Origin: Bacteroidia bacterium
GTDB taxonomy: Bacteria; Bacteroidota; Bacteroidia; UKL13-3
DNA length: 64,000 bases
Direction of reading: 5' to 3'
Assembly: GCA_021740845.1 (NCBI GenBank)
Contig: JAIOYZ010000021.1
Span: forward strand, 1 to 64,000
Shown here: piece after piece, positions 6,285 to 59,210 of the stretch
Layout of the letters: every line of letters begins with the position of its first letter
Position numbering within the stretch: position 1 is the first letter of the stretch
The notes under the pieces: generated by a model
What the model saw: the letters and a program-made list of their open reading frames with translations, nothing else
Told to the model about the DNA's origin: nothing
Databases searched by the model: none
Position numbers and translations under genes: made by a program

Positions 6285-6986
6285 TTATTTTTTTGGTCCA
6301 CGCACTTGCAATGGCCGTATTTCCAAATTCACTGTATGAATATTTTGAGGCATTTCTAAGGCTTGCACCATTAATAACGCAACGTCTTCGGGCATAAGCA
6401 TATAATCGTGTGGTTGTATGCCCGGACTATTTCTAAAGAAATCTGTTTTGGTAGAACCTGGATAAACGCAGGTTACTTTGACTCCAAAATCTCTCACTTC
6501 TTTAAACAAAGATTCACTCAATCCTTTTACAGCCCATTTGGTAGCACAATAGCCGCTAACCATTGCCATTCCTTCAAGTGCAGCTGTAGATGCAATATTA
6601 ATTATATGCCCAAAACCGTCCTTTTTCATTTGCGGCAATACTTGCTTTATGCAATAAAACATACCATTGATATTGGTTTGAAACATCTCATCCCATTGGC
6701 TTTCTGGCATATCTTCTAAATAACCAAAATATCCTAAGCCAGCATTGTTTATCAAGCCATGAATTTCTGTTTTTGTTTCGTATATTTTAGTAAAGGAGGT
6801 TTGAACCGATTGGCTGTTTCTGACATCACAATTAATAAAATGAAAATTAGGATGCTTAAAATCTTCTGCTTGGTTTCTACCCAATCCAAAAACAATGGCG
6901 CCTTTTGCTATTAGTTGTTTGGCCAACGCTAAACCAATTCCTTTGCTAACACCCGTAATAACTATTGTTTTGTTATTTAATTCCAT
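6285..6986 (-). CDS. Short-chain dehydrogenase/reductase
   Basis: The 233-residue product is a classical SDR. It has the nucleotide-binding TGVSKGIG (residues 11-18), NNAG, an active-site Ser in NIASTAA, and YCATK with the catalytic Tyr and Lys, followed by VYPGSTKTDFF. It is expected to be a cytosolic NAD(P)-dependent oxidoreductase of unknown substrate. It follows the downstream T9SS protein gene on the same strand by only 2 bases, so the two may be cotranscribed. A GGTTTGAACC copy at 6798 lies in the gene and encodes SVQTS. Confidence 0.85.
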   Translation of the reverse strand: MELNNKTIVITGVSKGIGLALAKQLIAKGAIVFGLGRNQAEDFKHPNFHFINCDVRNSQSVQTSFTKIYETKTEIHGLINNAGLGYFGYLEDMPESQWDEMFQTNINGMFYCIKQVLPQMKKDGFGHIINIASTAALEGMAMVSGYCATKWAVKGLSESLFKEVRDFGVKVTCVYPGSTKTDFFRNSPGIQPHDYMLMPEDVALLMVQALEMPQNIHTVNLEIRPLQVRGPKK

Positions 6987-6988: not shown

Positions 6989-8116
6989 TTATTCTTTAAT
7001 AAATTTGACTTGGTTCAAACCAAATGCTCGTATAAAATAAATCCCATTTGGCAAATCTCTCACATCTATTTCTAGGTTTGAACCAAAACTCATTTCAATA
7101 GTTTTTAGGTTCAAACCGAAACAATTGATAATTTCTAGAGTAACATGCTCTGCTTGAAAATAGTTTGGCAATTCTAGTATTAATTTATCACTTACTGGAT
7201 TTGGATGGTATTGGAGATTTACCTTTTTTTTTTCATTTAATCCTGTTGGTTGGTAGTTTGGGATTGCTACTCTAAAAAAACCTGTTGGCCCTAGCACACT
7301 GCTTTCTTGTGTAAATAAAATGGAATTGGCATTTTCAAAAAAGTATCCTTCCTTTTGGGTTAAGGTAGGGTAGCTTAAAACCTGACTATTTCCTTTAAAA
7401 AAGTTATGGCCAGTAAAGTTGCTAAACACCCATATTTTCTCGTAGCCACCCATTATCATTTTGTTGGCATTTGGGTAAATGGCAGCTCCTGTTACAGAGG
7501 AGTTAAAATAAGAACCTGTTCCCGTATAAACACTATCAATTAATTTGGCAACGAGGGTAGAACTTTTGGCTGGCAATTGATAGCATTTGGTATAACCAGA
7601 GTAGGGGTTACTTCTATTTTTGCTAAACAAATACAAGGAATCATTATACCAAAAGAAGCCTTCTAAATCAAAATTTTGATTGGCAACTGCTGGTGGAAAT
7701 TCCTTTTGGTCTGAATACGTAAAACTAGTTACAGAAGCCACCACAGAGTCTTTTGTAAAGGTATTTGGACTTGCAATTTTATAGATTCTAAGGTTCTGTC
7801 TGCTATTGTCGTTATTGCCAAAATCTCCCACCCAAATATTTCCTATGGCATCCATGGTAATATCTTCCCAATCTATATTGGTGGCATTGGTAATTCTTAT
7901 TCTCCTATTAATGGTTCCCGAGCTATCAAAAACATAAATGATAGGCTCATTACCGCTATCGTTGTGGGTTAGAAATTTGTTAGGTCCAATTTTTATGAGG
8001 CCAGAAGTTTCATTCAGTTCTTCGGGTAAATCACAAATCTTATTGGGTGAAATGGTTTGCGATTGTGCATTCATGAATCCAAGTAGGACAGAAAAGAGGA
8101 ATAAGAATCTTTTCAT
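6989..8116 (-). CDS. T9SS-secreted propeller-like protein
   Basis: The 375-residue product has a signal peptide (MKRFLFLFSVLLGF), then repeated WEDITMDAIGNIWVGDFGNN-like and YLFSKN segments that suggest a beta-propeller, and a type A T9SS sorting domain over about the last 75 residues (YHPNPVSDKLILEL to a basic VKFIKE end). Enzymatic role unknown. Three copies of the GGTTCAAACC-family motif (7012, 7075, 7108) crowd into the sequence coding the sorting domain, where they encode FGLNQ, GSNLE and FGLNL. Confidence 0.7.
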   Translation of the reverse strand: MKRFLFLFSVLLGFMNAQSQTISPNKICDLPEELNETSGLIKIGPNKFLTHNDSGNEPIIYVFDSSGTINRRIRITNATNIDWEDITMDAIGNIWVGDFGNNDNSRQNLRIYKIASPNTFTKDSVVASVTSFTYSDQKEFPPAVANQNFDLEGFFWYNDSLYLFSKNRSNPYSGYTKCYQLPAKSSTLVAKLIDSVYTGTGSYFNSSVTGAAIYPNANKMIMGGYEKIWVFSNFTGHNFFKGNSQVLSYPTLTQKEGYFFENANSILFTQESSVLGPTGFFRVAIPNYQPTGLNEKKKVNLQYHPNPVSDKLILELPNYFQAEHVTLEIINCFGLNLKTIEMSFGSNLEIDVRDLPNGIYFIRAFGLNQVKFIKE

Positions 8117-8196: not shown

Positions 8197-11139
8197 TTAA
8201 TATCCAAATATTTCTTCGAGTGTTACTACCTCAACCTTGCCTAGTTTTTCTAAATCTTTCATGGCCAATTTATCTTTTGAACCCATAATGCAATAGGTAA
8301 AAGGTTTATTGGTATAATGACTCTTTTGAAAAGTTGCAATGTCTTTAAATGTTAAGTTAGGAACTTGCTCGTAAATAATTTGATTAACGTCTTTTTCTAA
8401 TCCTAATTTTTGAGCAGCTGCATATGCAAAAATGATATCGGCATCATTTACTCTTTCGGTTTCAATTCCGTTTAAAATAGAACTCTTTGCAGATTCAAAT
8501 CCATTATCAGATTGAGGCATTTCGTTCAATAACTCATTCATTGCAGGAATTGCTTCATTAAATTTATCTGCTTGCGTGCCTATGTAAGCAACAATGGTAT
8601 AAGGATCCTTTTTCTTACTAGGTGTATTGTATCTAGAATAGGTAGAATACGCCAAAGCTTTTGATTCGCGGATAGTTTGGAAAACAATAGACGACATACC
8701 ACCACCAAAATATTCGTTGAATAGGGTAACAATTGGAGCTTGGTTTTCATCATACCCAACAGTTGATTTGTTTAACCACATTATCTCTGCCTGAACCATA
8801 TTGTAGTCTACAAACAATACTTTGTTTTCGGTATTTTCATTTCTAGTAAATTCTATTGCTGCAGGATACGGAATAGCAGTTTTGTTTAACTTATGTTCTT
8901 TGTTTAAAGTTTGAGTTAATTGAGGCATTGATAAAGGTCCAAAATACCAAATCTTGTGCTGGTAAGAAGTTAATTTTTTCAAATAACCAATAAGCTCTTC
9001 AGCTTTTAATGCTTTCAATTCATCGCTACTAAGTTCATTTTTAAATGGATTTTTGCTACCGTAGATGGCATAATTTTGCAAGGCAGCTCTAAAGATTAAT
9101 CCTTTGTTCTTTTTGCCATCTTCTCTACTTTTCAATATTCTTTCAACAAGAGAATTTAATGCTTCCTGATTTGGTTTTGCATTAGCTAAAAGGCTTTCAA
9201 ATAATTTTAAAGCAGGAACAAAATTTTGGTTCAAACCGCTTAATGTAACATATACTTGTTCGTTGCTAACGTTTACTGAGAAGTTACAAGCAAGTTTAAA
9301 AAACTCTTGACTAATTTGATCTGCAGTATATTTATCTGTACCCAAGTATTGCAATAAATTTACCGCCATTGGTAACTTCAAATCATTGAATTTACCCATA
9401 TCCAAAACATAATACAATTGAAACAATTCATTATCCGTGTTATGAACATATTGGATAGGAGCGAAGCCTGTTTTACCAAAAGTGATATCTTTTTTGAAGT
9501 CCAAAAATCGAGGAGTAATTTTTGGGGATGGAGTTTCTAAAATGCTTTTAACAAAAGGAGAAACATCATTTCTATTTACATCTACTGGAGTGATTTCTGG
9601 TTTTTCTATTTTCTGGATGTCTTTATTTTCTCCAACTCTTTTGAAAATTACAACATAATTATTGGTGTAAAAGGTTTTTGCAAATTCTACCAATTCTGCT
9701 TTGGTGATTTTTTCCATTTCATCCAAATCAGCAACTGCATCAACCCAAGGGCGGTCTGTGGTAAATGCATCTAGCATAACTCCAGCTCTACCTTGGTTGC
9801 TTTCTCTTTCTTCAATTTTATAAACCTTTAAATTGGCAATAATTGCTTTTAGGGTTGCGTCGTCAAATTCTCCAGCTTTTACTTTTTCCATTTGAGCCAA
9901 AAGTAAATCTCTTAATTGCTCTAATGTTTGGTCTTTCTTAGGACGGCCAGTTATAAAGGCAATGCTATAATCTTTGTTAATCCATGTAGAAGAGCCAGCG
10001 CTTAAAACCAATTGTTTCTTGCTTAAGTTTAAATCTATTAAGCCAGCTTTTGCATTAGATAAAATCATATCTACAATTTGCATCATGCGTGCTTCTTTGG
10101 TATTTGCTCCTGGTAAACGGTAGCCTATCATTAAGTTCTCAGCATCCGGACCATAAATATTAACCTCGTCTGCTTTGCTTTGAGTTGGTTCAGGCTTAAA
10201 TGTAAATGCAGGAATAGGAGATGACTTCATATAAGAGAAGCGAGCATCAATCATTTGAATGGCTGCATCTGGATCAAAATCACCTGAAAGAACGATTGCC
10301 ATATTATTTGGCACATAATAGGTATTGAAGTAATTTCTAATTTTTACCAAAGATGGATTTTTCAAATGTTCAACTGTTCCAATTGTAGTTTGAGTTCCGT
10401 AGGTATGATTTTTAAACAAAGCAGTCATCATTGCTTCAAATACTTTTCTACCATCGTTGTCTAAAGAGATATTTTTCTCTTCGTAAACTGCCTCTAATTC
10501 TGTGTGGAATAAACGAAGAACCGGCATGCGAAATCTTTCAGCTTCAATCTCTACCCATTTCTCTAAATTGTTTTGAGGAATATCATTTACATACACAGTT
10601 TGCTCCAAAGAGGTAAATGCATTGGTTCCTTGTGCTCCAATTCCTTGCATTAATTTATCGTACTCGTTTGCAATAGCAAAAGTACTTGCCACGCCACTAA
10701 CAGAGTCTATTTGGTGGTAAATGTTTTTGCGTTGTGCTTCGTCGGTAGTTTTGTTATAAACTTCATACAAAGCATCAATTTTATCTAGTTGTTGTTTTTC
10801 TTTAGCCCAATCTTTAGTGCCGTATTTATCGGTTCCTTTAAACAACATGTGCTCTAGGTAATGCGCCAATCCTGTATTGTCTGATGGATCGTTTTTGCTA
10901 CCAGCTTTGGTGGCAATATAAGTTTGTATGCGTGGTTGTTTGCTATTAACCGCCATCATTACGGTTAAGCCATTAGATAGAACATAGGTTCTAACTTTCA
11001 TTGGGTCATTGGAAACTACTGTATAGGTATATTTTCCATCTGGTGATTTCTTTGTTTCGGTAACAAAGGTTTTGTTTTGAGCCAAAAGGCTCAGGCTTAA
11101 AAAGCTACTAATTAATAATAAACCAAAAATCTTTTTCAT
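8197..11139 (-). CDS. M16 family zinc metallopeptidase (two-lobed, exported)
   Basis: I chose the ATG at 11139, which gives 980 residues starting MKKIFGLLLISSF, a signal peptide; the frame is open 8 codons further. The zinc motif HxxEH is seen as HYLEH in the first M16 domain, with the downstream Glu in AVYEEKN. The length fits a full pitrilysin/insulinase-type protein with active N-terminal and inactive C-terminal halves. It should degrade peptides in the periplasm. A terminator follows it. One GGTTCAAACC copy at 9228 encodes SGLNQ. Confidence 0.85.
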   Translation of the reverse strand: MKKIFGLLLISSFLSLSLLAQNKTFVTETKKSPDGKYTYTVVSNDPMKVRTYVLSNGLTVMMAVNSKQPRIQTYIATKAGSKNDPSDNTGLAHYLEHMLFKGTDKYGTKDWAKEKQQLDKIDALYEVYNKTTDEAQRKNIYHQIDSVSGVASTFAIANEYDKLMQGIGAQGTNAFTSLEQTVYVNDIPQNNLEKWVEIEAERFRMPVLRLFHTELEAVYEEKNISLDNDGRKVFEAMMTALFKNHTYGTQTTIGTVEHLKNPSLVKIRNYFNTYYVPNNMAIVLSGDFDPDAAIQMIDARFSYMKSSPIPAFTFKPEPTQSKADEVNIYGPDAENLMIGYRLPGANTKEARMMQIVDMILSNAKAGLIDLNLSKKQLVLSAGSSTWINKDYSIAFITGRPKKDQTLEQLRDLLLAQMEKVKAGEFDDATLKAIIANLKVYKIEERESNQGRAGVMLDAFTTDRPWVDAVADLDEMEKITKAELVEFAKTFYTNNYVVIFKRVGENKDIQKIEKPEITPVDVNRNDVSPFVKSILETPSPKITPRFLDFKKDITFGKTGFAPIQYVHNTDNELFQLYYVLDMGKFNDLKLPMAVNLLQYLGTDKYTADQISQEFFKLACNFSVNVSNEQVYVTLSGLNQNFVPALKLFESLLANAKPNQEALNSLVERILKSREDGKKNKGLIFRAALQNYAIYGSKNPFKNELSSDELKALKAEELIGYLKKLTSYQHKIWYFGPLSMPQLTQTLNKEHKLNKTAIPYPAAIEFTRNENTENKVLFVDYNMVQAEIMWLNKSTVGYDENQAPIVTLFNEYFGGGMSSIVFQTIRESKALAYSTYSRYNTPSKKKDPYTIVAYIGTQADKFNEAIPAMNELLNEMPQSDNGFESAKSSILNGIETERVNDADIIFAYAAAQKLGLEKDVNQIIYEQVPNLTFKDIATFQKSHYTNKPFTYCIMGSKDKLAMKDLEKLGKVEVVTLEEIFGY

Positions 11140-11200: not shown

Positions 11201-11359
11201 ATGACGTGTGGGTATGTTTGTCCGGTTTGCGAAGGTTCTGGGGTTTTAGAATCCGGAGAGCCTTGTGATTATTGCCAAAAACCAAAATCACCAAATAAAG
11301 CCGCTTATCCTATTTTAGGATTTGCAGCATTCTGTCTTTTCCTTGCAGGTCTTTTCTAA
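11201..11359 (+). CDS. 52-residue zinc-ribbon membrane microprotein
   Basis: This small reading frame starts with ATG at 11201 after a purine-rich GAGGA and ends with TAA at 11357-11359. It reads MTCGYVCPVCEGSG, then CDYC: two CxxC pairs in a DnaJ-type zinc-ribbon arrangement. After a short Lys/Pro linker comes a hydrophobic helix (about YPILGFAAFCLFLAGLF) that could span the membrane. It is divergent from the M16 peptidase gene and overlaps the 3' end of prmC by 50 bases on the opposite strand. Motif structure argues that it is real; function unknown. Confidence 0.5.
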   Translation: MTCGYVCPVCEGSGVLESGEPCDYCQKPKSPNKAAYPILGFAAFCLFLAGLF

Positions 11360-12197
11360 ACTCGTATTGGAAGCCTTTTCCATTTAAAAATTCAGTTAAA
11401 GCTATTTGCTGGTACTCACTTATTTCAAAAAATAAAGCTTTGGTTTGAACCGATTCTGTGAAGTAATTAATTACAGTTTTGTAAAATAAAAGCGGGTCGT
11501 TATTGCTAACAAATAAGGCCAAATGAGGTTCAAATTCCAATACATTTTTATGCATTTCCTCCTTTTCACTTTCACGGATATAGGGCGGATTACAAACCCA
11601 AATTTCGGATTGTTGCTTCAAAATAAGTTTCTTGCCTTCTTCTGTTAAAATATCTGTTTGGTTCAAACCAATTTCTAAACCCAAATTTTTTGCATTGCTT
11701 TTAACCAACTCAATTGCCTCTTTTGAAATATCTACTCCGCTAATATTTAAATTTTTAAAGCGTTTTTTTATGGCTAATCCTATGCAGCCGCTACCAGTGC
11801 AAATATCAAGTAAATTGCGTTTGTTTGGGTTAAGTTCGGTTTGAACCAAATTGTTTGCGGTAAGGTAATCGCATACCCAATTTACTAATTCTTCGGTTTC
11901 GGGACGAGGGATTAAAACATGTTTGTTTACATTTAAAACTAAATCTAAAAAGTAAGCTCTTCCTAAAATATATTGGATGGGTTCGCCATTTCTTAAGCGC
12001 GAAACAATTTCGTTCAGTTTTAATGACTCCGAAACTCCCAACTCTTTATTGAATAAACGGAGATGGGCTCTTTTTATAAGAAGTACATCTTCATAAACCC
12101 AATACATCAATTCTTCTGCTTCTTTTTTAGAATATAGGTCTGCCAATTTCTCAACAGACTCGTCAAAAAAGGTTTCCGCTTGAACGGCAATGCTCAT
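11310..12197 (-). CDS. prmC: Peptide chain release factor N5-glutamine methyltransferase
   Basis: The 295-residue product is of PrmC (HemK) type: N-terminal helical substrate-binding domain, YILGRAYF, the SAM-binding DICTGSGCIGLAI and the catalytic NPPYI that holds the Gln side chain. It methylates the GGQ glutamine of release factors RF1/RF2. Its ATG overlaps the stop of the upstream secreted-protein gene by 4 bases, so the pair is one operon. Three motif copies (11442, 11660, 11839) are in the gene and encode SVQTK, GLNQT and LVQTE. Confidence 0.9.
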   Translation of the reverse strand: MSIAVQAETFFDESVEKLADLYSKKEAEELMYWVYEDVLLIKRAHLRLFNKELGVSESLKLNEIVSRLRNGEPIQYILGRAYFLDLVLNVNKHVLIPRPETEELVNWVCDYLTANNLVQTELNPNKRNLLDICTGSGCIGLAIKKRFKNLNISGVDISKEAIELVKSNAKNLGLEIGLNQTDILTEEGKKLILKQQSEIWVCNPPYIRESEKEEMHKNVLEFEPHLALFVSNNDPLLFYKTVINYFTESVQTKALFFEISEYQQIALTEFLNGKGFQYEFRKDLQGKDRMLQILK

Positions 12198-12586
12198 TGT
12201 AATTTTATTATTTCGCTTGTAACTGTAAATTCAATATCCTTTGCTCTCGATTTTTGGATATAACTACTTTTCATTTTATCAAGAATCTGGCAAGTGACAA
12301 CCCTGTTTTTAGGATGGGGTTGGTTTCCTTGGTTTTCCAAAATCTTCTTTATTTTAAGGGTATTGGTGCAATCGTTGGTCCAATTAATTTTAAATTCAAA
12401 ATTCAATTTGGTGTAATCTTGAAATTCAATTTGCGTGGTTTTGGTTCTTGTTATAAATGTATTGACACTAGTCTTATCCTCCAATACAAATTGCCTTTCT
12501 ATAAAAGCAGCGCAATCTATGTTTTTGGAAAACGCTATTTGGTTCAAACCGAAAAAAAGAAAGAGCTGTATAAATAGCTTTGTCAT
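12194..12586 (-). CDS. Small exported protein, unknown function
   Basis: The 130-residue product has a signal peptide (MTKLFIQLFLFFGLNQIAFS) and four Cys residues in the mature part that could form disulfides. No family recognised. The end overlaps the prmC start by 4 bases (ATGA), implying translational coupling with prmC. A GGTTCAAACC copy at 12541 encodes FGLNQ inside the signal peptide. Confidence 0.6.
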   Translation of the reverse strand: MTKLFIQLFLFFGLNQIAFSKNIDCAAFIERQFVLEDKTSVNTFITRTKTTQIEFQDYTKLNFEFKINWTNDCTNTLKIKKILENQGNQPHPKNRVVTCQILDKMKSSYIQKSRAKDIEFTVTSEIIKLQ

Positions 12587-13093: not shown

Positions 13094-13469
13094 GCAAACT
13101 AACCAACTCCAAACCATCTTCTTTTATAGTGTTTTCAAGAAAAACAAATTTACGGTCGTACATTTTTCCATTCACATAATAGCTGAGCCAATATTCATTA
13201 TTGAGTACAAATAAATCGCTTATTATTGGTTCAATTTTAGAATAGCTTAAAGGTTCTATAGTTTCCAAGAAGTGCCTCAATTGGCTGGTTTGAACCTCTT
13301 CTCCGTTTAGTTTTCCATAACCTTTGCTACTTACTAAAACACCTTCCAAAAGGTTTTGGGTATAATTAATAACATATACATTCCAAACCATTTCCATGTT
13401 TTCACCAAGCTCATTTACTACGGCAATGGAAACTCCTTCCAAACTTTCAACTTCAATATCTTTTAACAT
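13065..13469 (-). CDS. Conserved hypothetical protein
   Basis: The 134-residue protein is acidic and has no signal peptide or membrane segment. It resembles a small Bacteroidota protein sometimes misnamed a phenylalanyl-tRNA synthetase subunit; I see no synthetase motif. It follows the YkuK-like gene on the same strand after 24 bases, so the two probably form an operon. A GGTTTGAACC copy at 13287 encodes EVQTS and another (13482) sits in the gap between the two genes. Confidence 0.6.
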   Translation of the reverse strand: MLKDIEVESLEGVSIAVVNELGENMEMVWNVYVINYTQNLLEGVLVSSKGYGKLNGEEVQTSQLRHFLETIEPLSYSKIEPIISDLFVLNNEYWLSYYVNGKMYDRKFVFLENTIKEDGLELVSLLNKPGLLIS

Positions 13470-13493
13470 CCAGCAAATTTAGGTTTGAACCAA

Positions 13494-16478: not shown

Positions 16479-19400
16479 ATGGAAAATAAAAATCAATACT
16501 GGAGAGGTTTAGAGGAATTAAACAAGGATCCAAAATTCATGGAAGCTAAGAAACATGAATTTGCCGAAGGAATTCCTTTGGAAGAAGTATTTACCGAAGA
16601 AGATGGTGGCCTTAACGCAAATCGCAGAGACTTTTTGAAATATTTTGGTTTCAGTATTTCTGCTGTTGCATTAGCTGCTTGTAACAAAACACCGGTTAAA
16701 AATGTAATTCCATATATTGTTAAACCAGAAAACATTACCCCAGGTAATGCAAACTGGTACGCATCTACTTGTAATGCCTGTTCTGCAAATTGCAGTATCT
16801 TGGTAAAAACTCGTGAAGGTCGTCCAATTAAAATTGAAGGAAATAGCGAATCACCTGTATTTAAAGGTGCAACTTGTGGATCAGGACAAGCTAGTTTATT
16901 AGGTTTATACGATAACGAACGTTTACGTATGCCTATGGCTAATGGTTCTAATTCAACTTGGGAAGCTACTGATAAAGCCATTGCAGAAGGCTTAACTGCT
17001 GCTAATACAATTCGCTTGGTTACAGGTACTGTTAACAGTCCTTCAACTTTAAAAGCAATTGCAGAGTTCACAAGCAAATATCCAAAAACACAACATATCC
17101 AATACGAAAACAATTCTTTGGGTTCAATCGCTGAGGCAAGTAAAATTGCTTATGGCAAAAAGGTTGTTCCTGGTTACCGTTTCGATTTGGCTAAAGTTAT
17201 TGTAAGTTTTGGTGCTGATTTCTTAGGTACTTGGATTTCTCCAGTAGAGTTTACCAAACAATGGGTAAGCATGCGTAAGGCAGAAAACAAAAACATGAGC
17301 CGTCATATCCAGTTAGAATCAACCTTAACATTAACTGGTTCTAATGCAGATGTTCGCTATCCAATTAAACCTTCTGCTGAAGGTGCTTATTTGGTAAGTT
17401 TATACAATAAAATTGCAGCATTAGCTGGTGCTCCTGCTTTAGGCACAATGCCAACTGTTGAATTGCCTTTAGATGGAATTTCTACTACAGCTAATGAATT
17501 ATGGGCTGCTAAAGGAAGTTCATTAGTAGTTTGTGGTACCAATAATGTAGATTACCAATTATTGGTTCATGCCATCAACAACTTATTAGGAAATAATGGT
17601 ACAACTGTAGATTTCAAAAATTACAGTAACCAACATTATAGCGACGATGCTGCTTTCGAAGCATTTGCAAAAGAAGTAGAGGCAGGTTCGGTTGATGCAG
17701 TTATTTTCTACAATGTAAATCCAGTTTATAGCTATAGCAATGGTGCTAAATTGGCTGAAGGCATTAAGAAAATTAAATTATCAATTGCATCTAATACCAA
17801 TTTAGATGAAACTTCAAGTGTTTGTAAATACCAAACACCAGATAGCCATTACTTAGAATCATGGAATGATAACGAGCCTAAAGCTGGTTATGTTACCTTT
17901 ACTCAACCAACCATTTCTACAGTTTTTGATACTCGTCAAATGCAAGAAAGTTTATTGCGTTGGGCTGGTAATTCTGCTTCTTACTATGATTACATGAAAG
18001 CCAATTACGGCAGCATGTCTAAAGATTCATGGAACCAAGCTATTCACGATGGATTTATGGTTTCTGAAGTTGCTGCTTCAACAGTTACTTTCAATGCCAA
18101 CTTAAGCGAAACAGTAGCTCCTGCATACAACGCTTATACAAATAACAAAACTAAATTAGAGTTAAAATTATACAGCAAAATTGGTGTTCGTGATGGAGCC
18201 CATGGTCATAACCCATGGTTGCAAGAATTGCCTGATCCAATTAGTAAAGTATGCTGGGATAACTATGCTGTAATAAGCAATGCTACCGCAAAAGACCTAA
18301 AAGTTGCCGATGGTGATTTAATTAATATTACCGCTAAATCTGGTAAAATTGAAGCATTACCAGTTTTGGTTCAGCCAGGACAACCTAATAATGTTATTGC
18401 AGTTGCAATAGGTTATGGTAGAACTGCTGGTGGAAAATCTGGTTTAAATGTTGGTAAGAATGCTTATCCATTGCAAACTGGTTCAAGCATTGAAATTACT
18501 GCCGAAAAAGCTGCTGGTGAATACGAATTGGCTCAAACCCAAACACACCACACTATTGAAGGTCGTGCTTTAATAAAAGAAGCTTCTTTAAATGAATACA
18601 ATAAAGATGCTAAAGCGGGTAACCACGACCACCATAAAGCATTAAAAGAAAACGGTAATTTATTAACTCTTTGGGCCGAACGCGATAGCAAAGGTCACCG
18701 TTGGGCAATGGCCGTGGATATGAACAAATGTACTGGTTGCGGTGCTTGTGTAGTTAGTTGTAACGCAGAAAACAACGTTCCAGTTGTTGGTCGCCAAGAA
18801 GTATTAAATAGCCGCGAAATGCATTGGATTCGCATCGACCGCTATTACCGTTTCCACAATAAGGATAACAATAATATTACCAAGGAAAACGAATACAAAT
18901 TAGAAGCAACTGGTGTTGATTTCGAAAATGTAAGCGTAACCTTCCAACCAATGATGTGTCAACAATGTGGTCACGCTCCATGTGAGTCGGTTTGTCCAGT
19001 ATTGGCAACTGTTCATAGTAGTGAAGGTTTAAACCATATGGCATATAACCGTTGCGTAGGAACTCGTTATTGCGCGAATAACTGTCCATATAAAGTTCGT
19101 CGTTTCAATTGGTTTAAATACAGAGATAACAGCCAATTCGATTTCCATTTCAACAATGATTTAGGTAGAATGGTTATCAATCCAGATGTTACCGTTCGTT
19201 CTCGTGGGGTAATGGAAAAATGTTCATTCTGTGTTCAAAGAATTCAAGCAGGCAAATTGAAAGCTAAGTTAGAAAACAGAACCATTGTAGATGGTGATGT
19301 TAAAACCGCTTGCCAACAAAGTTGCCCTGCAGATGCTATCATCTTTGGAGATATCAACGATGAGAAGAGTGAAGTTAGAAAACACTTCCAAAACGATCGT

Positions 19401-23530: not shown

Positions 23531-23557
23531 GGTTTGAACCTAAATTTGGTTCAAACC
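23531..23557. repeat. Inverted pair of the GGTTTGAACC motif
   Basis: GGTTTGAACC (23531-23540) and GGTTCAAACC (23548-23557) face each other across 7 bases and can pair as a perfect 10-bp stem. The right copy is part of the extended form TTTGGTTCAAACCGAA. It lies between the act terminator and folB and belongs to the window-wide motif family. Confidence 0.85.
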
Positions 23558-25386: not shown

Positions 25387-25396
25387 GGTTTGAACC
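25387..25396. repeat. GGTTTGAACC motif copy between gcdH and the phosphohexomutase gene
   Basis: Within the extended form TTCGGTTTGAACCAAA; intergenic member of the window-wide family. Confidence 0.85.
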
Positions 25397-26944: not shown

Positions 26945-27007
26945 CTATGTTTTTTCCTTTTAGATTTTCGTCAACTAAGTTTGGTTCAAACCGAATTTTT
27001 ATTAGAC

Positions 27008-29355: not shown

Positions 29356-29365
29356 GGTTCGAACC
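29356..29365. repeat. GGTTCGAACC motif copy
   Basis: Perfectly palindromic CG-centred variant of the window-wide motif, intergenic between the thioesterase and rnr. Possible -7 box TACCTTGC follows at 29409-29416. Confidence 0.8.
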
Positions 29366-33123: not shown

Positions 33124-34083
33124 ATGGCCAATTTCAATAAAGAATTTGCTGGAAATAAATTCTTTAAAAACGGTCATTTAGAAACTATTCTTCCTAGTGT
33201 TTTTAGAAAAATTTCCCTTCCTTACCAACGGCAAAGATTAAATTTACCCGATGGTGATTTCTTGGATTTAGATTTCTTAAAACAAGGAAGTGATAAATTA
33301 CTTCTACTATTTCATGGTTTAGAGGGTTCTTCTCAATCCAACTATATCAAGGGTTTTGCAAGGTTCGGTTTGAACCAAGGCTTTGATATCTGTGCAGTGA
33401 ATTTGAGAAGTTGTAGCGGCGAGCCCAATAAATTGCTAAGAAGTTACCACAGTGGAGCAACCGAAGATGTGGATGCAATTCTTTCCTATTTGTTATCTAA
33501 AAATTCATACTCGCAAATTATTCCAATTGGTTTTAGTTTGGGTGGTAATTTATTGCTGAAGTATTTGGGCGAAGGTAAATTCAAGATTCCTTCTCAGATA
33601 AATCAGGCAGCAGCGTTTTCTGTCCCTATCGATTTAGGTGCAAGTGCTGTGCAATTAGGCAAGGTTCAAAACAAACTTTATATGCAAAGGTTCTTGCTTA
33701 GTTTGAACCAAAAGTTAATTGAAAAAGCACAGCGTTTTCCTGGTGAAATAAATTTAAAAGGTCTTTCTAAGATTACACGTTTCGAGGAATGGGATGATAG
33801 GTTTACAGCGCCTTTGCATGGGTTTTCTGGTGCCAAAGAGTATTACCAAAAATGTAGCAGCAAACAGTTTCTTAGCGGAATTTCAATTTCAACTTTATTG
33901 GTGAATGCGCAAAATGATCCCTTTTTGCCAGAATCTTGTTACCCAGAAAAAGGAAGTTTTGGTTCAAACCTACTTGTTGAAATACCCAAATTTGGCGGCC
34001 ACTGCGGGTTTTCTTATGGTTTTCCCAATGGATATTATTATAGTGAAGAAAGAGCATTTCATTTTTTTTCAAACAAAGAATAA
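33124..34083 (+). CDS. Alpha/beta hydrolase, YheT/EMB8 family
   Basis: The 319-residue product begins with the family's FKNGHLETILPSVFR. HGLEGSS is the oxyanion region, GFSLGGN holds the nucleophile Ser, NDPFLP the acid and FGGHCGF the His. These proteins are predicted esterases or thioesterases. Two motif copies (33367 and 33961) lie within it and encode FGLNQ and GSNLL. Confidence 0.85.
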   Translation: MANFNKEFAGNKFFKNGHLETILPSVFRKISLPYQRQRLNLPDGDFLDLDFLKQGSDKLLLLFHGLEGSSQSNYIKGFARFGLNQGFDICAVNLRSCSGEPNKLLRSYHSGATEDVDAILSYLLSKNSYSQIIPIGFSLGGNLLLKYLGEGKFKIPSQINQAAAFSVPIDLGASAVQLGKVQNKLYMQRFLLSLNQKLIEKAQRFPGEINLKGLSKITRFEEWDDRFTAPLHGFSGAKEYYQKCSSKQFLSGISISTLLVNAQNDPFLPESCYPEKGSFGSNLLVEIPKFGGHCGFSYGFPNGYYYSEERAFHFFSNKE

Positions 34084-37813: not shown

Positions 37814-37842
37814 AGGCTCTTTTGGTTCAAACCGAATTTTTT

Positions 37843-38952
37843 TTATCTAGGTAAAATTTGGCCGCGTGAGTTTACATACAAATTAATACTCTTGAAAATT
37901 ACCTCAGCAATGCCGTCTTCAAAAATGCCAATGTTTTCAAATTCAAATGGAACCACAATTCTTCCTTGTTTATCTATTGCGCCCCATTTTCCTTTTAATT
38001 GTACTGGACATAATCCTTCGTTAAAATAGCCAGCTTGTTCAAAATAGGGTTGGTAAATATAGTTTCCTTTTGGGTCGATAAAAGCCCATTTGCCTTGGTA
38101 AAACACAGCTGCTCTGCCTTCAGAAAAAGGACGAATATCATCGTATAAGGCAGGAATTACAAGGGTGCCGCTGGTATTTATAAATCCAAATTTTCCTTCT
38201 ACTTCAACCGCTGCTAATCCTTCGTTAAATTCTTTTGCATAGGTATAAGTTGCTTCAATTACCATTTCTCCTTTGCGGTTAATAAAGCCAAATTTGCCCA
38301 TTTTATTTACAACAGCCAATTCTTCATTAAAGCTACTTATAAACTGATATTCGGCAGGCAATACTATGGTTCCATTGCTATCAATTAAGCCAAATTTAGT
38401 TCCTTGCAAAAAGCGAGCAAGACCATTGTCCATATCATCTGCATCGTCAAAAATGAAATCGGTAGCATAGGTTCCATCTTTTTTCATAAAGGCAAATTGG
38501 TAGCCCAAATTGCTAATGTCGAACCCAAATTTATTTTGAACAATATCAATTTTTTTTCCAACGCGGGCCAAGCCGTTATTAAAGGAGCGCGCATCATAAA
38601 TTTCTTTGGGTAAGGTTAAAACCACCCTTCCGTTTGCATCCAAATAGTAGCGCTTAAATTTGTAATCCATAACGCTAACTAATCCTTCCGAAAAAGTGCC
38701 TATATATTGGTACAATCCAGTGTCGATTACCCTTTTTTCGCTTTTGTTTATTAGGCAAGGCATATTACCCAAAGCTACAGAAGCATATCCATTTTGGAAA
38801 TTTTGTGCTAAATCGTATTTAAAATCAATGAGCATGGTTCCTTCCTGATTCATGTATCCCCATTTCTTTTTTTTCAATACAGGATAAAGGTTTTGTGCCA
38901 TTACGGTTTGAACCAAAAATGCGCCAATAAGCAATAATCGAAGGTTTTTCAT
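37843..38952 (-). CDS. Exported WG-repeat protein
   Basis: The 369-residue product has a signal peptide (MKNLRLLLIGAFLVQTVMAQ) and about ten WG-like repeats of roughly 30 residues, each of the style GKFGFINRKGEMVI or GKWGAIDKQGRIVV followed by a F-x-E-G-L/R-A segment. Such repeats form a folded ligand-binding array of unknown function. The signal peptide is partly encoded by a GGTTTGAACC copy (38905). Confidence 0.8.
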   Translation of the reverse strand: MKNLRLLLIGAFLVQTVMAQNLYPVLKKKKWGYMNQEGTMLIDFKYDLAQNFQNGYASVALGNMPCLINKSEKRVIDTGLYQYIGTFSEGLVSVMDYKFKRYYLDANGRVVLTLPKEIYDARSFNNGLARVGKKIDIVQNKFGFDISNLGYQFAFMKKDGTYATDFIFDDADDMDNGLARFLQGTKFGLIDSNGTIVLPAEYQFISSFNEELAVVNKMGKFGFINRKGEMVIEATYTYAKEFNEGLAAVEVEGKFGFINTSGTLVIPALYDDIRPFSEGRAAVFYQGKWAFIDPKGNYIYQPYFEQAGYFNEGLCPVQLKGKWGAIDKQGRIVVPFEFENIGIFEDGIAEVIFKSINLYVNSRGQILPR

Positions 38953-39708: not shown

Positions 39709-39718
39709 GGTTCAAACC
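39709..39718. repeat. GGTTCAAACC motif copy between the Nfu gene and recX
   Basis: Intergenic, in the form TTAGGTTCAAACCGAA. Confidence 0.85.
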
Positions 39719-41707: not shown

Positions 41708-41774
41708 GGTTTGAACCAAATCTCCTTGTTAGAAATACCTTGTTGCAATTAAATAAGGCAGTTCGGTTTGAACC
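41708..41774. repeat. Two direct copies of the extended motif TTCGGTTTGAACCAAA
   Basis: GGTTTGAACC at 41708-41717 and 41765-41774, both in the full 16-base form and same orientation, 57 bases apart, in the gap before murF-alr. The remainder of the 280-base gap (41692-41971) shows nothing else clear. Confidence 0.85.
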
Positions 41775-41971: not shown

Positions 41972-44434
41972 ATGTTCACGCTTCAAGAATTAAAACTTGC
42001 ATTGGATGGTGTTTTTGTAAAACAAGATGCTGCGCCTTTGCCTATTCAGCATTTTGTAATCGATAGCAGAAAATTATTGTTTACAGAAGAGGCTGTTTTT
42101 ATTGCAATTAAAGGTGTTAGAAACGATAGTCATAATTACATTAAGGATGTTTATAATGCCGGAATTAGGAACTTTCTAATAGAAAAAGGCAATTACGATA
42201 AGCAGCTTTTAGGCGAATTCCCTCAGGCAAGTTTTTTAGAAGTAGAAAATGGAATACTTGCTTTGCAAAAAATAGCTGCTTTGCACCGTGCTCAATTTTC
42301 GATTCCAATTGTTGGTATAACTGGTAGTAATGGAAAAACTATAGTAAAAGAATGGTTGGCGCATTTGCTTAAAGAGGATTTAAGTTTGGTAAAAAACCCA
42401 AAGAGTTATAATTCGCAAATTGGTGTGCCATTATCTGTTCTCCAACTTAACTCTTCGCATCAAATAGGTTTTTTTGAGGCTGGTATTTCTGAACCAAATG
42501 AAATGCAAAAGCTTGAAAAAATAATTGCACCCACCATGGGTTTGTTTACAATTCTTGGCGATGCACATGGTGAAGGATTTTTATCTAGCTCCCAAAAATT
42601 GGAGGAAAAAGCTCAGTTATTTACTAATTGTTCTTCTCTTCTTTATTGCAGTGAACAACGTTTGGTGGATGATTATTTTGTGAGTCAAAAAACGTTTTTT
42701 CCTCAAAGAAAATTAATCACCTGGTCGCGCTTAAGCCACCAAGCAACTTTTTATTTCGAAACTACAATTGGTTCAAACCATACCCAACTTTTTTACAAGG
42801 GAAACTGCATAACCATACCTTTTGCAGATGAAGCTTCTATTTGGAATGCTTGTACTTGCTTGGCTTTTCTGCTTGCACAGGGCTACGAATTAAATAGGTA
42901 TATAGATAAGTTTTTAGACCTGCCCGTATTAGAAATGCGTTTGCAGTTAAAAGAAGCTCAGCAAAATTGTTTGCTAATAAATGATAGTTATAGCGCAGAT
43001 TTAGGTTCGCTCAAAATTGCTTTAGAATACATGCAGCAACATGCAAGCGGACAAAAACGTACGGTTATTTTATCTGATTTTTTGGAGAGTGGAAAATCGG
43101 AGAATGAGTTGTACCAAGAAATAAGTAAGCAATTAAAAGCCAATCAAATTGATAAGTTAATAGGTATTGGTAATGCTATGTTGCACAACGAGCATTTATT
43201 TGATTTGCCAGAAAATTATTTTTATAAAGATACCTTAAGTTTTATAACAAATTTTCCTGCAGAGAATTTTAAGAATGAACTCATTTTGCTTAAAGGCGCA
43301 AGGAGTTTTGCTTTTGAAAAAATCTCAAAAATTCTTGAGAAAAAAGTACATCAAACGGTATTTGAAATTAACCTAAATGCCTTGGTTCAAAACTTAAATG
43401 CCTATAGAAATTTACTGCAACCAAAAGTGAAAGTTATGGCTATGGTTAAGGCTTTTAGCTATGGTGCTGGAAGTTATGAAATTGCTAAAATTTTAAACTT
43501 TAATAGGGTAAATTACCTAACTGTTGCCTACGCAGATGAAGGCGTTGTTTTGCGTGATGCAGGCATAAAATTGCCTATCATGGTTATGAATCCTGAGCCT
43601 TCTAGTTTTGATGTAATCTTGCAAAACAACTTAGAGCCAGAAGTCTATAATTTTGAAATTCTAAATGCCTTGCTTTTAGCAGCTGATGGTGAAGAAGTAG
43701 GCGTGCATATTGAATTAGATTCTGGAATGAAACGATTGGGTTTTGATGCCAACCAATTGCATGAATTATTAAACTTGCTCAAAGAAAATCCGCAACTTAA
43801 AGTGCGTTCTGTGTTTACTCATTTAGCAGCGAGTGAAGATGAAATGCAAGACGATTTTTCAATGCATCAAATAGACTTATTTGCCAAGTTAAGTGAGAAA
43901 ATTTGTTCGGCATTTCCTTACACTATTTTGCGCCATTGTTTAAATAGTGGTGGAATTTCTAGATTCCCAAATGCTCAGTTTGATATGGTGCGTTTGGGCA
44001 TTGGTTTATATGGTGTTAATCCAACTTCGAGTCCTATGAACTTAGCAAATATTGGCACTTTAAAAACCGTTATTTCACAAATTAGAAACATTACATCCGA
44101 TGAAAGTATTGGATACGGTAGAAGAGGCAAATTGCCCAAAGATGGGAAAATAGCAATTGTTGCAATTGGCTACGCAGATGGTCTCGATAGGAAATTAAGT
44201 AATGGAAATGGCGACATGGTTGTTAATGGCAAAGCGGCTAAAATTGTTGGCAATATTTGCATGGACATGACTATGTTGGATGTTTCTGAAATTGATTGCA
44301 AAGTAGGGGATGAGGTAGAAGTTTTTGGTCCTCAAAACAGCATACTAAAATTGAGCGAACAAATAGGAACCATACCTTATGAAATCCTAACTGGAGTTTC
44401 GCAAAGGGTAAAAAGGGTGTATTATTATGAGTAG
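41972..44434 (+). CDS. Fused MurF ligase and alanine racemase
   Basis: The ATG at 41972 gives 820 residues (a TTG lies 10 codons earlier). The N-terminal half is MurF: GITGSNGKT binds ATP, followed by the central Mur ligase domain (FFEAGISEPNEMQKL). The C-terminal half is alanine racemase: KVKVMAMVKAFSYGAGSYE with the PLP-binding Lys, and GYGRRG and ICMDMTMLDV near the dimer end. The fusion supplies D-alanine and adds D-Ala-D-Ala to the peptidoglycan precursor; fused MurF-Alr is known in Bacteroidota. Confidence 0.9.
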   Translation: MFTLQELKLALDGVFVKQDAAPLPIQHFVIDSRKLLFTEEAVFIAIKGVRNDSHNYIKDVYNAGIRNFLIEKGNYDKQLLGEFPQASFLEVENGILALQKIAALHRAQFSIPIVGITGSNGKTIVKEWLAHLLKEDLSLVKNPKSYNSQIGVPLSVLQLNSSHQIGFFEAGISEPNEMQKLEKIIAPTMGLFTILGDAHGEGFLSSSQKLEEKAQLFTNCSSLLYCSEQRLVDDYFVSQKTFFPQRKLITWSRLSHQATFYFETTIGSNHTQLFYKGNCITIPFADEASIWNACTCLAFLLAQGYELNRYIDKFLDLPVLEMRLQLKEAQQNCLLINDSYSADLGSLKIALEYMQQHASGQKRTVILSDFLESGKSENELYQEISKQLKANQIDKLIGIGNAMLHNEHLFDLPENYFYKDTLSFITNFPAENFKNELILLKGARSFAFEKISKILEKKVHQTVFEINLNALVQNLNAYRNLLQPKVKVMAMVKAFSYGAGSYEIAKILNFNRVNYLTVAYADEGVVLRDAGIKLPIMVMNPEPSSFDVILQNNLEPEVYNFEILNALLLAADGEEVGVHIELDSGMKRLGFDANQLHELLNLLKENPQLKVRSVFTHLAASEDEMQDDFSMHQIDLFAKLSEKICSAFPYTILRHCLNSGGISRFPNAQFDMVRLGIGLYGVNPTSSPMNLANIGTLKTVISQIRNITSDESIGYGRRGKLPKDGKIAIVAIGYADGLDRKLSNGNGDMVVNGKAAKIVGNICMDMTMLDVSEIDCKVGDEVEVFGPQNSILKLSEQIGTIPYEILTGVSQRVKRVYYYE

Positions 44435-45759: not shown

Positions 45760-45883
45760 GGCTGCAATTTATGCCAAAGTGATTTAATATTTATACCCAA
45801 ATTTTGATTGTATGGCAGTTCAGGAATATGTTTTCTCCCTTTATTTCTTTTCTTAATTTGGTTCGAACCAAACCTGAAAAATA

Positions 45884-51143: not shown

Positions 51144-51255
51144 ATTACTAGTTTTTTAGTTTCGGTTTGAACCAAAAATACATCTTGACTTGGTTCAAAC
51201 AAATTTATAATAGGTTGTGAAAATGCTGGAAAGCTGGATTAATTCCAAGCATTCT

Positions 51256-51793: not shown

Positions 51794-52639
51794 TTGTCTA
51801 GATCGATCTATCAACTATTATTTTTTTTACACCAATTCAGTTTGGATGTAGCTCTTGGAACTTGCGCCATGTTGTTTGCAGGCGCTCAGGTAATTTCAAC
51901 TCCCATTCCATGGTATTTTTACCTGCTTTTGTTCCAAGGAACTTTAGTAGTTTATTGGTTCGATCATATATTAGACAGCAGAAAACCTCTTTTGGTTCAA
52001 ACCGGCTCCCGACATTCTGTTTTTAAAGAGAAGCGAGTTTTATTTTATATTTTAATAAGCTTGTTAGTTTTAAGCAATGCCTTTGTTGCCTTATATTTCT
52101 TAAGTTTATTAGAATTGGTTTATGGTTTGATCCTATTTTTTGCCTTACTAATTTACCTTTTTCTACACCGAAAGTTCATTCGTATTTTTATTTTAGAAAA
52201 GGAATTATTGATTGCCATTTTATATACTTCCAGCCTTGTGTTTCCTCTATTTGCAATAGTTGAACCTAGCCTTTTTTCTTACAACACTTTATCTATTTTT
52301 TTAATAGGCAGCATGGTGTTTTTTGCTGTGTTACAGAATTTATTTTCTATCGCCAAAATGGAGTCAGAAAGCGACGAAGAAATGGAAATAAGAAATATTA
52401 CACAAAGCTTTGGGTCCTATAAATTAAGGCAATTGCAAGTGGCCATGTTGGCGTTACAGTTTTTCTTAGGTTTGGTTCTTTGGGTAATTTTTCCAAATAC
52501 TGTTACTCTTAAATTTGTGGGTATAAGTTTGCTAATTTCTTTCGGACAGTTTTTTCTCCCCAATGCATTTCAAGAAGCCAATAACGATTCCTATCGAATT
52601 GTAGGTGAATTGCTTTATTTGCTTGGTTTTTTTGTCTGA
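51794..52639 (+). CDS. UbiA-like multi-pass membrane protein
   Basis: The 281-residue protein starts at a TTG, the only start left in the frame after the stop at 51788. It has about eight membrane helices, and YWFDHILDSRK resembles one of the Asp-rich segments of UbiA prenyltransferases, with a late EANNDSYRIVGE. The fit is partial; it may be an inactive relative. Motif copy at 51994 encodes LVQTG. Confidence 0.5.
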   Translation: MSRSIYQLLFFLHQFSLDVALGTCAMLFAGAQVISTPIPWYFYLLLFQGTLVVYWFDHILDSRKPLLVQTGSRHSVFKEKRVLFYILISLLVLSNAFVALYFLSLLELVYGLILFFALLIYLFLHRKFIRIFILEKELLIAILYTSSLVFPLFAIVEPSLFSYNTLSIFLIGSMVFFAVLQNLFSIAKMESESDEEMEIRNITQSFGSYKLRQLQVAMLALQFFLGLVLWVIFPNTVTLKFVGISLLISFGQFFLPNAFQEANNDSYRIVGELLYLLGFFV

Positions 52640-52649: not shown

Positions 52650-52659
52650 GGTTCAAACC
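52650..52659. repeat. GGTTCAAACC motif copy before the RlmI-like gene
   Basis: Extended form TTTGGTTCAAACCGAA in the intergenic gap; a TATATTTG promoter box follows at 52704. Confidence 0.85.
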
Positions 52660-52716: not shown

Positions 52717-53895
52717 ATGGAGTATAAGAAATTAGTTCTAAAAAGTGGTCGTGAAAGATCTTTAGTAAACCGTCATCCTTGGGTTTTTAGTGGTGCCATC
52801 AAAGATTTGCCTACTGCAAAAAATGGCGAAATCATTGAAGTGCGCAGCAACCACAACGATTTATTGGGATACGGTTTTTATTCTCCTAATAGTCAGATTA
52901 CTTGTAGGGTTTTTGAATTTACCAATGATGAAAAATTAATTGATGATGCCTATTGGTTGGCAAAATTGCAAAATGCATATCATTTACGTACCCAACTTCT
53001 CGATTTTAAAACTACAAATTGTTTCCGTTTGCTTCATGCGGAAGGAGATTTCTTTCCAGGTATTATTATAGATGTTTACGATAAAGTGGCCGTGGTTCAA
53101 TTGCTAATTAAAGGTATGGAGAACATAGCGCCTATTATTTATGGCGGTTTGAACCAATTAGGCTTTGATTATATTTATTTAAAGACCAAACAAAATACCC
53201 AACTTTTAGAGCAAGTTGAGCAAGGAAGCAGATGGGTAGGAGAGGCCGCTGAAATGCCAATTTTTGTTTTAGAGCACGGCGTTAAATTTAGTGTAAATGT
53301 GGAGACTGGACAAAAAACAGGTTTCTTCATCGACCAAAGAGAGAATAGAAAACTATTAGGAGAATGGTCTAAAGGAAAGAAAGTATTAAATACATTTTCA
53401 TATTCTGGGGGATTTAGTTTGTATGCTTTGGAAGCAGGAGCAACAGAGGTACATTCGGTTGATAGTTCTAAAGATGCCATTGCTTTATGTGAGCAGAATG
53501 TGGCACTTACACTATATGCAAGCAAACACCAATCTTTTGTGGAAGATTGCTTTGACTTCCTTAAAAAATCGGAAGCAAATTATTACGATATCATAATTTT
53601 AGATCCTCCAGCCTTTGCCAAAAATGCGCGTTCAGTGGATAATGCAGCTAGAGGGTATAAAAATTTAAATTTATTGGGTTTCCATAAAGTGAAACCAGGA
53701 GGTTTGGTTTTTACATACAGCTGTAGCCAACATATTGATAAGGATTTGTTCCGCAAAATTGTATTCTCAGCCGCAGCAGAAGCTCGCAGAAATGTTAGAG
53801 TTTTACGTCAGCTTTCTCAACCAGAAGATCATCCAATAAATATTTTTCATCCAGAAGGAGAATACCTCAAAGGCCTGATGCTATTGGTGGACTAA
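52717..53895 (+). CDS. RlmI-like class I SAM-dependent rRNA methyltransferase
   Basis: The 392-residue protein has an N-terminal PUA-like domain (GRERSLVNRHPWVFSGAI), a central beta-hairpin and a C-terminal Rossmann methyltransferase with FSYSGGFSLYALEAGA and DPPAFAKN. This is the RlmI/RlmK-L type plan; RlmI makes m5C at 1962 of 23S rRNA, and the exact target here is inferred. A motif copy (53146) encodes GGLNQ. Confidence 0.8.
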   Translation: MEYKKLVLKSGRERSLVNRHPWVFSGAIKDLPTAKNGEIIEVRSNHNDLLGYGFYSPNSQITCRVFEFTNDEKLIDDAYWLAKLQNAYHLRTQLLDFKTTNCFRLLHAEGDFFPGIIIDVYDKVAVVQLLIKGMENIAPIIYGGLNQLGFDYIYLKTKQNTQLLEQVEQGSRWVGEAAEMPIFVLEHGVKFSVNVETGQKTGFFIDQRENRKLLGEWSKGKKVLNTFSYSGGFSLYALEAGATEVHSVDSSKDAIALCEQNVALTLYASKHQSFVEDCFDFLKKSEANYYDIIILDPPAFAKNARSVDNAARGYKNLNLLGFHKVKPGGLVFTYSCSQHIDKDLFRKIVFSAAAEARRNVRVLRQLSQPEDHPINIFHPEGEYLKGLMLLVD

Positions 53896-54472: not shown

Positions 54473-54569
54473 ACCCTTGCTTCGACTGCTAGGCGGCCTT
54501 TTACAAAAATCTTAAATTTATCCTCGTTGCTGCTTGGCCATCAGTTGGCAGGTTAGTCGAACAAAGCTA

Positions 54570-58292: not shown

Positions 58293-58703
58293 TTATTGGG
58301 CCACTTTTTTAGCATTAACTACCCAAACTGCAAACGGAATTAATGGAGTAAAGGCCAAAGGATGAACAAATTCGTGGCATTTTTCCAGTATAAAATTTGA
58401 GCCTTGAATCAGGAAAATATCAAGGATGGCTAATCCAAAAATCAAAAAATATAAATAGATAAATTGGCTTTTATTTGAAATGTTAAGTGCGGTTTGAACC
58501 AATTTTAAAATCACTAAGTTTAATGCCAATCGAATAAATTTATTGAGCAATAAAGACAATTCGATATCTTCATTTGGTTCAAACCGGTAAAAACCTTTTG
58601 GACTAAAATTGAAATGAATAAAATCAAAAGACTGAATAAAAATATTGAATGCGCTAAGAACTATAATTAGGGTAAAAAGTACCTGATTAGATTTTAAATT
58701 CAT
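58293..58703 (-). CDS. Exosortase F system-associated protein
   Basis: The 136-residue protein has four predicted membrane helices with FIQSFDFIHFNFSPKGFYRFEPNEDIELS in the first loop and ends in a hydrophobic segment plus VVNAKKVA. This is the plan of the small protein found next to XrtF in Bacteroidota (exosortase F-associated). It follows xrtF by 9 bases. Two motif copies (58491 and 58576) lie in it. Confidence 0.75.
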   Translation of the reverse strand: MNLKSNQVLFTLIIVLSAFNIFIQSFDFIHFNFSPKGFYRFEPNEDIELSLLLNKFIRLALNLVILKLVQTALNISNKSQFIYLYFLIFGLAILDIFLIQGSNFILEKCHEFVHPLAFTPLIPFAVWVVNAKKVAQ

Positions 58704-58712: not shown

Positions 58713-59210
58713 TTAAACAAGTTTGTTGTTTTTTCTTACCCAAAAAAACATCATCCCAAATGCAATAAGATAGAGAATAATCGGGAAAATATATTCATGA
58801 AAGAATGCAAATTGGTCTGGGAAATTTACTTTTATTTGAACCAAAGCATAAATGCGGAAAAGGTTGGCAATGGCCAGAAAAATTGTCCCCAAGGAAATAT
58901 ATACCCAATGCTTTTTCTGAAGTTTACCATAGGCCAATACAAAGGAAATAAATACAATAACTACACTAATTCCATTGCAAGCCTCTTTAATATTTATAAT
59001 CGCTTTTCCATTTAAAAGGAATTGAACCTTAGCAAATTCAGGCATTACCAATAAACTGGAATTAGAGAATAAGGTCGTCAATGCTTCCGCTATCCATAAA
59101 CTTACTGGATCTATTGTTGGTTCAAACCGCCATAAATAAAAAATATAAATAACTTGCAAAAGCGCGTATAGGCCAATGAATTTAAAAATAAATTTGAGTG
59201 CTGGTGTCAT
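58713..59210 (-). CDS. xrtF: Exosortase family protein XrtF
   Basis: The 165-residue membrane protein has the exosortase triad: Cys in EACNGISVV, Arg in LFRIYALV and His in FFHEYIFP, each at a helix border. XrtF is the short, Bacteroidota-specific exosortase; unlike long exosortases it has no known PEP-CTERM partner nearby. Exosortases process and anchor exported proteins, typically in cells making extracellular polysaccharide. A motif copy (59119) lies near its start. Confidence 0.85.
   Translation of the reverse strand: MTPALKFIFKFIGLYALLQVIYIFYLWRFEPTIDPVSLWIAEALTTLFSNSSLLVMPEFAKVQFLLNGKAIINIKEACNGISVVIVFISFVLAYGKLQKKHWVYISLGTIFLAIANLFRIYALVQIKVNFPDQFAFFHEYIFPIILYLIAFGMMFFWVRKNNKLV

Follow-up and report, generated by a model that had tools for sequence, protein, structure and literature searches.

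A short DNA word that is over-represented throughout a genus of freshwater Bacteroidota (the lake origin of the bins being read from isolate names) forms the core of a directional 16-mer, TTCGGTTTGAACCAAA, which is maintained at the level of DNA, is spelled in clade-specific dialects and keeps its sites among close relatives. By analogy with known systems it may be a genus-wide self tag resembling DNA uptake sequences, a reading that we regard as evenly poised between right and wrong. The window, that is, the whole stretch of 64,000 nucleotides analysed (contig C65:1-64000 of the 4.09-Mb, 66-contig genome G000), contains 36 copies of GGTTYRAACC versus 0.37 expected (standard deviation 0.71 and maximum 5 in 100 dinucleotide-preserving shuffles), of which 14 lie outside the listed ORFs (>=100 aa), and the entire genome holds 1,424 copies versus 55 of the reversed control. 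Among the copies in 315.7 kb of G000, the centre was TG/CA in 105, CG in 13 and TA in two. Coding DNA has no surplus of the TA-centred type (2 observed versus 1.7 expected), and the TA-centred match counted among the 36 of the window, GGTTTAAACC at position 19026, probably arose by chance.

The consensus derived from oriented logos is directional, and the view of GGTTYRAACC as a symmetric palindrome was dropped once these logos revealed the direction. When copies are oriented on GGTTTGAACC, TTC stands on the left and AAA on the right, with both flanks present in 36 of the 105 copies of the first sample; across 146 copies, the preceding base is C in 101, the following base is A in 109 and the second following base is A in 139. 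The 146 perfect copies of GGTTTGAACC rival, without exceeding, the 167 copies with a single mismatch (48 expected, the CG-centred form excluded), and the excess of the latter stems mainly from the left half and position 8, with nearly none at positions 9 and 10. Beyond ~16 bp there is no conservation save a weak preference for T at +10/+11 past the core, roughly a helical turn beyond the AAA flank, seen in G000 only. Helical phasing of AT tracts was considered and set aside as a weak signal from a single genome. Direction is a property of dialects I and III, the form of dialect II being symmetric.

Inside genes, the nucleotide string is retained far beyond what the encoded proteins demand. The 244 predicted coding sequences of G000 (271.5 kb, from a simple home-made caller) include 57 TG/CA copies, compared with 4.2 on average and at most 9 when synonymous codons were shuffled within genes 200 times; the reversed control pattern, observed once, averaged 1.1 in these shuffles. 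In twelve genomes, six of dialect I and six of dialect III, the observed count likewise surpassed every one of the genome's 40 shuffles (e.g. 29 observed with a shuffle maximum of 6 in G005, 24 with 2 in G008, 40 with 6 in G003 and 41 with 9 in G004), and the four dialect II samples hold just 1-4 coding sites each. The copies of G000 are read as VQT (24), GLN (17), GSN (8), FEP (5) and FKP (3), and the tag is used in 17 of 22 places where the protein permits it as GLN, 24 of 32 as VQT, 5 of 7 as FEP, 3 of 4 as FKP and 8 of 21 as GSN. An earlier note on the window had proposed, without offering a mechanism, that the 10-mer is read in all frames inside genes and that the string itself is favoured. 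All 17 places it cited carry GGTTTGAACC, GGTTCAAACC or GGTTCGAACC in the reading given, with correct translations and coordinates, except that 11839 should be 11838. Its claim of all frames is right for five of the six, which are used in all three sets of sites (51, 39, 25, 12 and 8 sites in dialect III); the frame that yields a TGA stop has no uses. That the tag is a by-product of codon or amino-acid bias, or of conserved protein motifs, would agree with the dominance of the VQT and GLN readings, and yet has next to no chance of being correct, given the shuffles (4.2 versus 57), the intergenic excess in G000, the use of five frames in three sets and the limitation to one genus. Codon bias, which the earlier note had named as one explanation that might overturn its own, fails to reproduce the counts (maximum 9 versus 57), and synonymous and dinucleotide shuffles together rule out codon bias and chance. 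The evidence supports maintenance of the tag at the DNA level, through selection or through biased exchange, and the favouring of the string itself is borne out by the shuffles, by site retention in near relatives and by a loop of prmC in which the tag is read differently between species.

Table 1. Tag copies and host gene in the window (positions in nucleotides; a dot marks features without an assigned strand)
Feature	Position	Strand	Basis or remark
Tag GGTTTGAACC, VQT, short-chain dehydrogenase gene	6798..6807	+	translation, Pfam
Tag, GLNQ	7012..7021	-	translation
Tag, GSN, left half of facing pair with 7108	7075..7084	+	
Tag, GLN, right half of facing pair with 7075	7108..7117	-	
Tag, GLNQ, M16 peptidase gene	9228..9237	-	retained in G013 and G009
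prmC, host gene	11310..12197	-	Pfam PrmC_N and MTS domains
Tag in prmC, SVQTK	11442..11451	+	translation, prmC alignment
Tag in prmC, GLNQT	11660..11669	-	translation, prmC alignment
Tag in prmC, LVQTE	11838..11847	+	starts in last codon of a four-codon insertion; 16 congeners without the insertion
Tag, GLNQ, ORF 12194-12586	12541..12550	-	ORF rejected by codon model
Tag, EVQTS	13287..13296	+	
Tag, intergenic	13482..13491	+	
TA-centred GGTTTAAACC, probably chance, non-member	19026..19035	.	shuffle counts
Tag, intergenic, left arm of facing pair, convergent genes	23531..23540	+	
Tag, intergenic, right arm of pair with 23531	23548..23557	-	
Tag, intergenic, full 16-mer	25387..25396	+	
Tag, intergenic, full 16-mer	26983..26992	-	
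Tag, CG-centred, intergenic	29356..29365	.	
Tag, GLNQ	33367..33376	+	
Tag, GSN	33961..33970	-	
Tag, intergenic, full 16-mer	37824..37833	-	
Tag, LVQT	38905..38914	+	
Tag, intergenic	39709..39718	-	
Tag, intergenic, full 16-mer	41708..41717	+	
Tag, intergenic, full 16-mer	41765..41774	+	
Tag, GSN	42770..42779	-	
Tag, intergenic, full 16-mer, 4 bases past stop codon	44439..44448	+	
Tag, CG-centred, intergenic	45860..45869	.	
Tag, intergenic, full 16-mer	51164..51173	+	
Tag, LVQT	51994..52003	-	
Tag, intergenic, full 16-mer	52650..52659	-	
Tag, GLNQ	53146..53155	+	
Tag, LVQT, ORF 58293-58703	58491..58500	+	ORF rejected by codon model
Tag, FEPN, ORF 58293-58703	58576..58585	-	ORF rejected by codon model
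Tag, FEPT, ORF 58713-59210	59119..59128	-	ORF rejected by codon model
Tag, CG-centred, VRT	60511..60520	.	
Tag, FEPN	60945..60954	+	

The prmC gene, in which three copies had been seen from the window's sequence, indeed carries all three, read as SVQTK, GLNQT and LVQTE (Table 1). This gene is 49-58% identical to its counterparts in Bacteroidota metagenome-bin records (e.g. NKJG01, which is Bacteroidetes bacterium B1(2017), CAMCJW01, CANKQY01, CANFSD01, CAILJQ01 and JACMQU01), and none of its three tags occurs at the equivalent codon in the 16 congener prmC genes aligned. In the variable loop near codon 250, G000 has GGTTCAAACC read as VQT; G008 and G010 have the 10-mer a few bases earlier, read as GSN. 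At codon 104, four dialect III species have a spelling of their own in common, read as LVQ; the others carry another residue where these have Q.

Retention of tags at orthologous sites is high in close and low in distant relatives, indicating that sites are held on short time scales and turned over on long ones. From G005 to G008, 9 of 10 tags were kept (81.7% identity over 34.9 kb; P = 1e-6), as were 9 of 14 in the opposite direction, with a baseline of 16.9% for 10-mers in general. From G008 to G010, at 94% identity, 22 of 25 tags persisted (baseline 59.9%), and G009 and G012 kept 5 of 5 (baseline 46.7%). Within dialect III, the values were 4 of 4 from G007 to G014 and 4 of 5 from G014 to G007 (baseline 23.5%), and 4 of 6 each way between G004 and G014 (baseline 16.4%). 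Few tags of G000 were kept in distant congeners (1/12 in G013, 2/6 in G009, 2/8 in G012, 0/3 in G002, 1/7 in G003, 0/3 in G014, 0/4 in G008, 1/6 in G005 and 0/4 in G010), in which the tag is placed elsewhere or spelled in another dialect. Absence of the 10-mer from most orthologous sites, which the earlier note had said would overturn its reading, therefore applies in part: close relatives keep the sites (9/10 and 22/25), and distant ones mostly lack them.

Within the family, the enrichment is confined to the genus, represented here by G000 and 18 congeners. GGTTYRAACC is enriched in all 18 congeners (109-880 copies; reversed control, 14-74) and in none of the six other genera of the family searched (6-39 copies; control, 14-58). 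The dialects have the TGAACC(A)AA side in common, and STGAACCAAA occurs 44-516 times in the 19 genus genomes versus 16-41 times in 18 other genomes of the family, although in G005, G008, G011, G013, G016, G017 and a few non-genus genomes it is about twofold over the reversed control and no more. The word CGGTTTGAACCAA is present in 723 copies in G000 (reversed control, 0), in 276, 300 and 281 copies in G005, G008 and G010, in 144 and 135 copies in G009 and G012, in 11-85 copies in the other 13 congeners and in 0-2 copies in the 19 non-genus genomes. GGTTCGAACC reaches its highest counts in G002, G011, G013 and G016 (186-300 copies, with 6-164 in the others), and CTGAACCAA is the leading spelling in G001, G003, G004, G006, G007 and G014. 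One dialect of the tag is spelled CTGAACCAAA. The dialects are therefore predominances and are not exclusive. An rpoB tree was built for 15 members of the genus with three outgroups (without G007, which gave no rpoB match, and G016-G018, which were outside that search); on it, the author-assigned dialect labels, with G015 unlabelled, require 4 changes, compared with a mean of 9.4 for shuffled labels, none of 200 shuffles being equally low; dialect I turns up in separate branches. Two other repeats were encountered in these genomes: words of the GTACATCGTA/GTACGATGTA type, a different repeat, number 21 and 19 in 60 kb of G015 (L048-L050) versus 0.08 expected each, and the words GCTTCCCACCA / AAATGGTGGGAA, with 12 copies in 40 kb of G010 (L058-L059), are probably a local repeat.

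The arrangement of the tag along the chromosome bears on two further explanations. Tags of G000 facing each other within 60 bp number 7 versus 0.7 expected, and facing pairs are rare in congeners. The three intergenic facing pairs that we folded all form hairpins (stem z from -4.9 to -8.7), the pair at 23531/23548 giving a 14-bp hairpin of -19 kcal/mol (z -7.8). Such well-folding pairs at convergent genes would suit a transcription terminator or a small mobile element spread by copying, an explanation that we nevertheless consider highly improbable, considering that most copies are single, that 63 of 118 copies lie wholly within genes, that relatives retain the same sites and that no conservation extends past ~16 bp save the weak T preference. 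Non-coding DNA holds 67 of the 146 sites in G000, versus 17.8 expected; an intergenic preference was not clear in dialect III genomes G003, G004, G006 and G014 (2/42, 4/45, 0/21 and 0/16) or in G005, G008 and G010 (4/33, 6/30 and 5/24). The density in G000 is ~0.35 per kb, one per kb being usual for uptake sequences, and the spacing is no more even than random (coefficient of variation 1.02 over 140 gaps, contigs having been sampled in pieces). Both strands are used evenly (72 versus 74 copies), uncorrelated with GC skew. Even strand use, a near-palindromic core whose near-dyad symmetry suits a dimer, and the mostly coding location of congener sites would all be compatible with a binding site on the chromosome for an internal protein acting in nucleoid organization, segregation, repair or recombination, in the manner of Chi or KOPS. 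Sites of the Chi and KOPS type are short and aligned with the direction of replication, whereas the tag is balanced between strands, and it would be unusual for them to number more than 1,000, to be spelled differently from clade to clade and to form inverted pairs where genes end; we judge this explanation unlikely, though the least so of those that compete with a self tag.

The PilB/PilT-type ATPase is the engine of uptake in both known tag systems. No full-length match to its family, PF00437, was found in the 37 genomes of the family searched, which gave short partial matches only; all 14 control genomes were positive, and seven other genomes of the class matched at ~1e-127 or better. ComEC (PF03772) is present in 60 of 60 genomes, and so does not explain a tag limited to one genus. 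With ComEC at hand and a type IV pilus ATPase not detected, the receptor of an uptake system would be a new one. As for DNA methyltransferases, PF01555 exceeded the cut-off in 4 of the 16 genus members searched (G001, G004, G010 and G015), PF02086 in 6 of 16 (the one in G000 being a broken fragment), PF00145 in 6 of 19 and PF02384 in 15 of 19. None of the four families passed the cut-off in G014 (98% complete) or G009 (96%), both of which have the tag, and a solitary methyltransferase of these four families shared across the genus was accordingly discarded, all of them being patchy and none genus-wide. This matters for comparison with HIP1 (GCGATCGC), a highly iterated word of cyanobacteria that, like the tag, is used in many reading frames inside genes. 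A HIP1-like highly iterated palindrome served by a solitary DNA methyltransferase would match the tag in scale, all-frame genic use and maintenance at the DNA level; with a directional tag in dialects I and III and none of the tested methyltransferase families genus-wide, we find it improbable. HIP1 itself, according to PMC4390886, is a true palindrome tied to solitary methyltransferases, whereas the tag is directional and its bearers share none of the families tested.

A closer parallel is offered by DNA-uptake self tags, which are known only from Neisseriaceae and Pasteurellaceae (PMC12616744). The DUS of Neisseriaceae, as PMC3630211 describes it, likewise has a direction: it is a 10-12-mer numbering roughly a thousand copies or more, which varies in dialects around a fixed core, gives a TGA stop in one frame and occurs both within and between genes, and also as inverted pairs. 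Unlike the DUS, the tag belongs to another phylum, has another spelling and a lower density, and is known here from sequence alone; its family is also without the type IV pilus ATPase and hence without a ComP-type pilin route. The USS of Pasteurellaceae resembles it in a strong core with a weak AT flank, subclade-specific types, absence of orientation bias and stability of sites in relatives, and most of the uptake-sequence features listed in PMC1626085 are matched by the tag. USS spacing is even, whereas that of the tag is random, and, unlike in the USS, the +10/+11 T preference of the tag is weak and restricted to G000. We do not claim membership in the uptake-sequence class: uptake itself is a prediction, the pilus feature and even spacing are lacking, and the intergenic preference appears in one genome only.

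If the tag is a self tag, a receptor on the outer surface would recognize its TGAACC(A)AA side, and DNA that carries the tag, and hence comes from kin, would be let into a ComEC-type channel. Imported strands would then recombine homologously, spreading and repairing tags, so that close relatives would go on sharing sites; between clades, the favoured spelling would drift together with the receptor and give rise to dialects. Uptake, a receptor and competence in the genus are what we infer. Uptake sequences may even have arisen a third time, independently, in Bacteroidota, with three or more dialects in this one genus and a route that needs no type IV pilus; we place this proposal slightly on the doubtful side of even. 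Our literature search, which subscription journals and most preprints lay outside, found neither this motif nor an established Bacteroidota tag. In the phylum, Porphyromonas gingivalis requires ComEA and ComEC, with the step of DNA crossing the outer membrane left unexplained in PMC11532111; Riemerella columbina prefers its own DNA, with no tag established and frequent k-mer words left untested by the authors of PMC7965970. A self tag would, by analogy, offer a reason for the own-DNA preference of some Bacteroidota, would provide a sequence handle on the outer-membrane DNA receptor of the phylum, and would mean that bacteria lacking type IV pili can still evolve self-recognition through tags. 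The natural dialects lend themselves to a direct test: exchanging tags would be expected to show barriers to transformation, and the receptor to differ between dialects.

Three stretches, chosen post hoc, are poor in tags: L032 has none in 8.2 kb (3.1 expected), L038 none in 10.7 kb (4.0) and L035 one in 20 kb (7.5). Their pooled Pfam matches include glycosyltransferases, sugar-nucleotide genes, a BT4734-like domain and sensor kinases, and L038 has primase-like and phage-lysin-like matches. Depletion of the tag in mobile DNA is only suggested by these data, the foreign origin of the three stretches not being firm. In the viral collection at large, the exact 16-mer was found in 21 stretches, one copy each, with no tag-rich virus. 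Apart from the tag, the window carries dispersed repeats with AGGTGGCTGAGCTTAGTCGAA at 54541-56015 and 61665-63585 (a 33-nt family of 12 copies, mostly in non-coding DNA), tandem heptads of the AAGAGTT/TTAAGTT type at 61522-61626 and 63134-63168, and, at 41942-44434, a fusion gene, a single frame whose two halves match Mur ligase and alanine racemase in Pfam.
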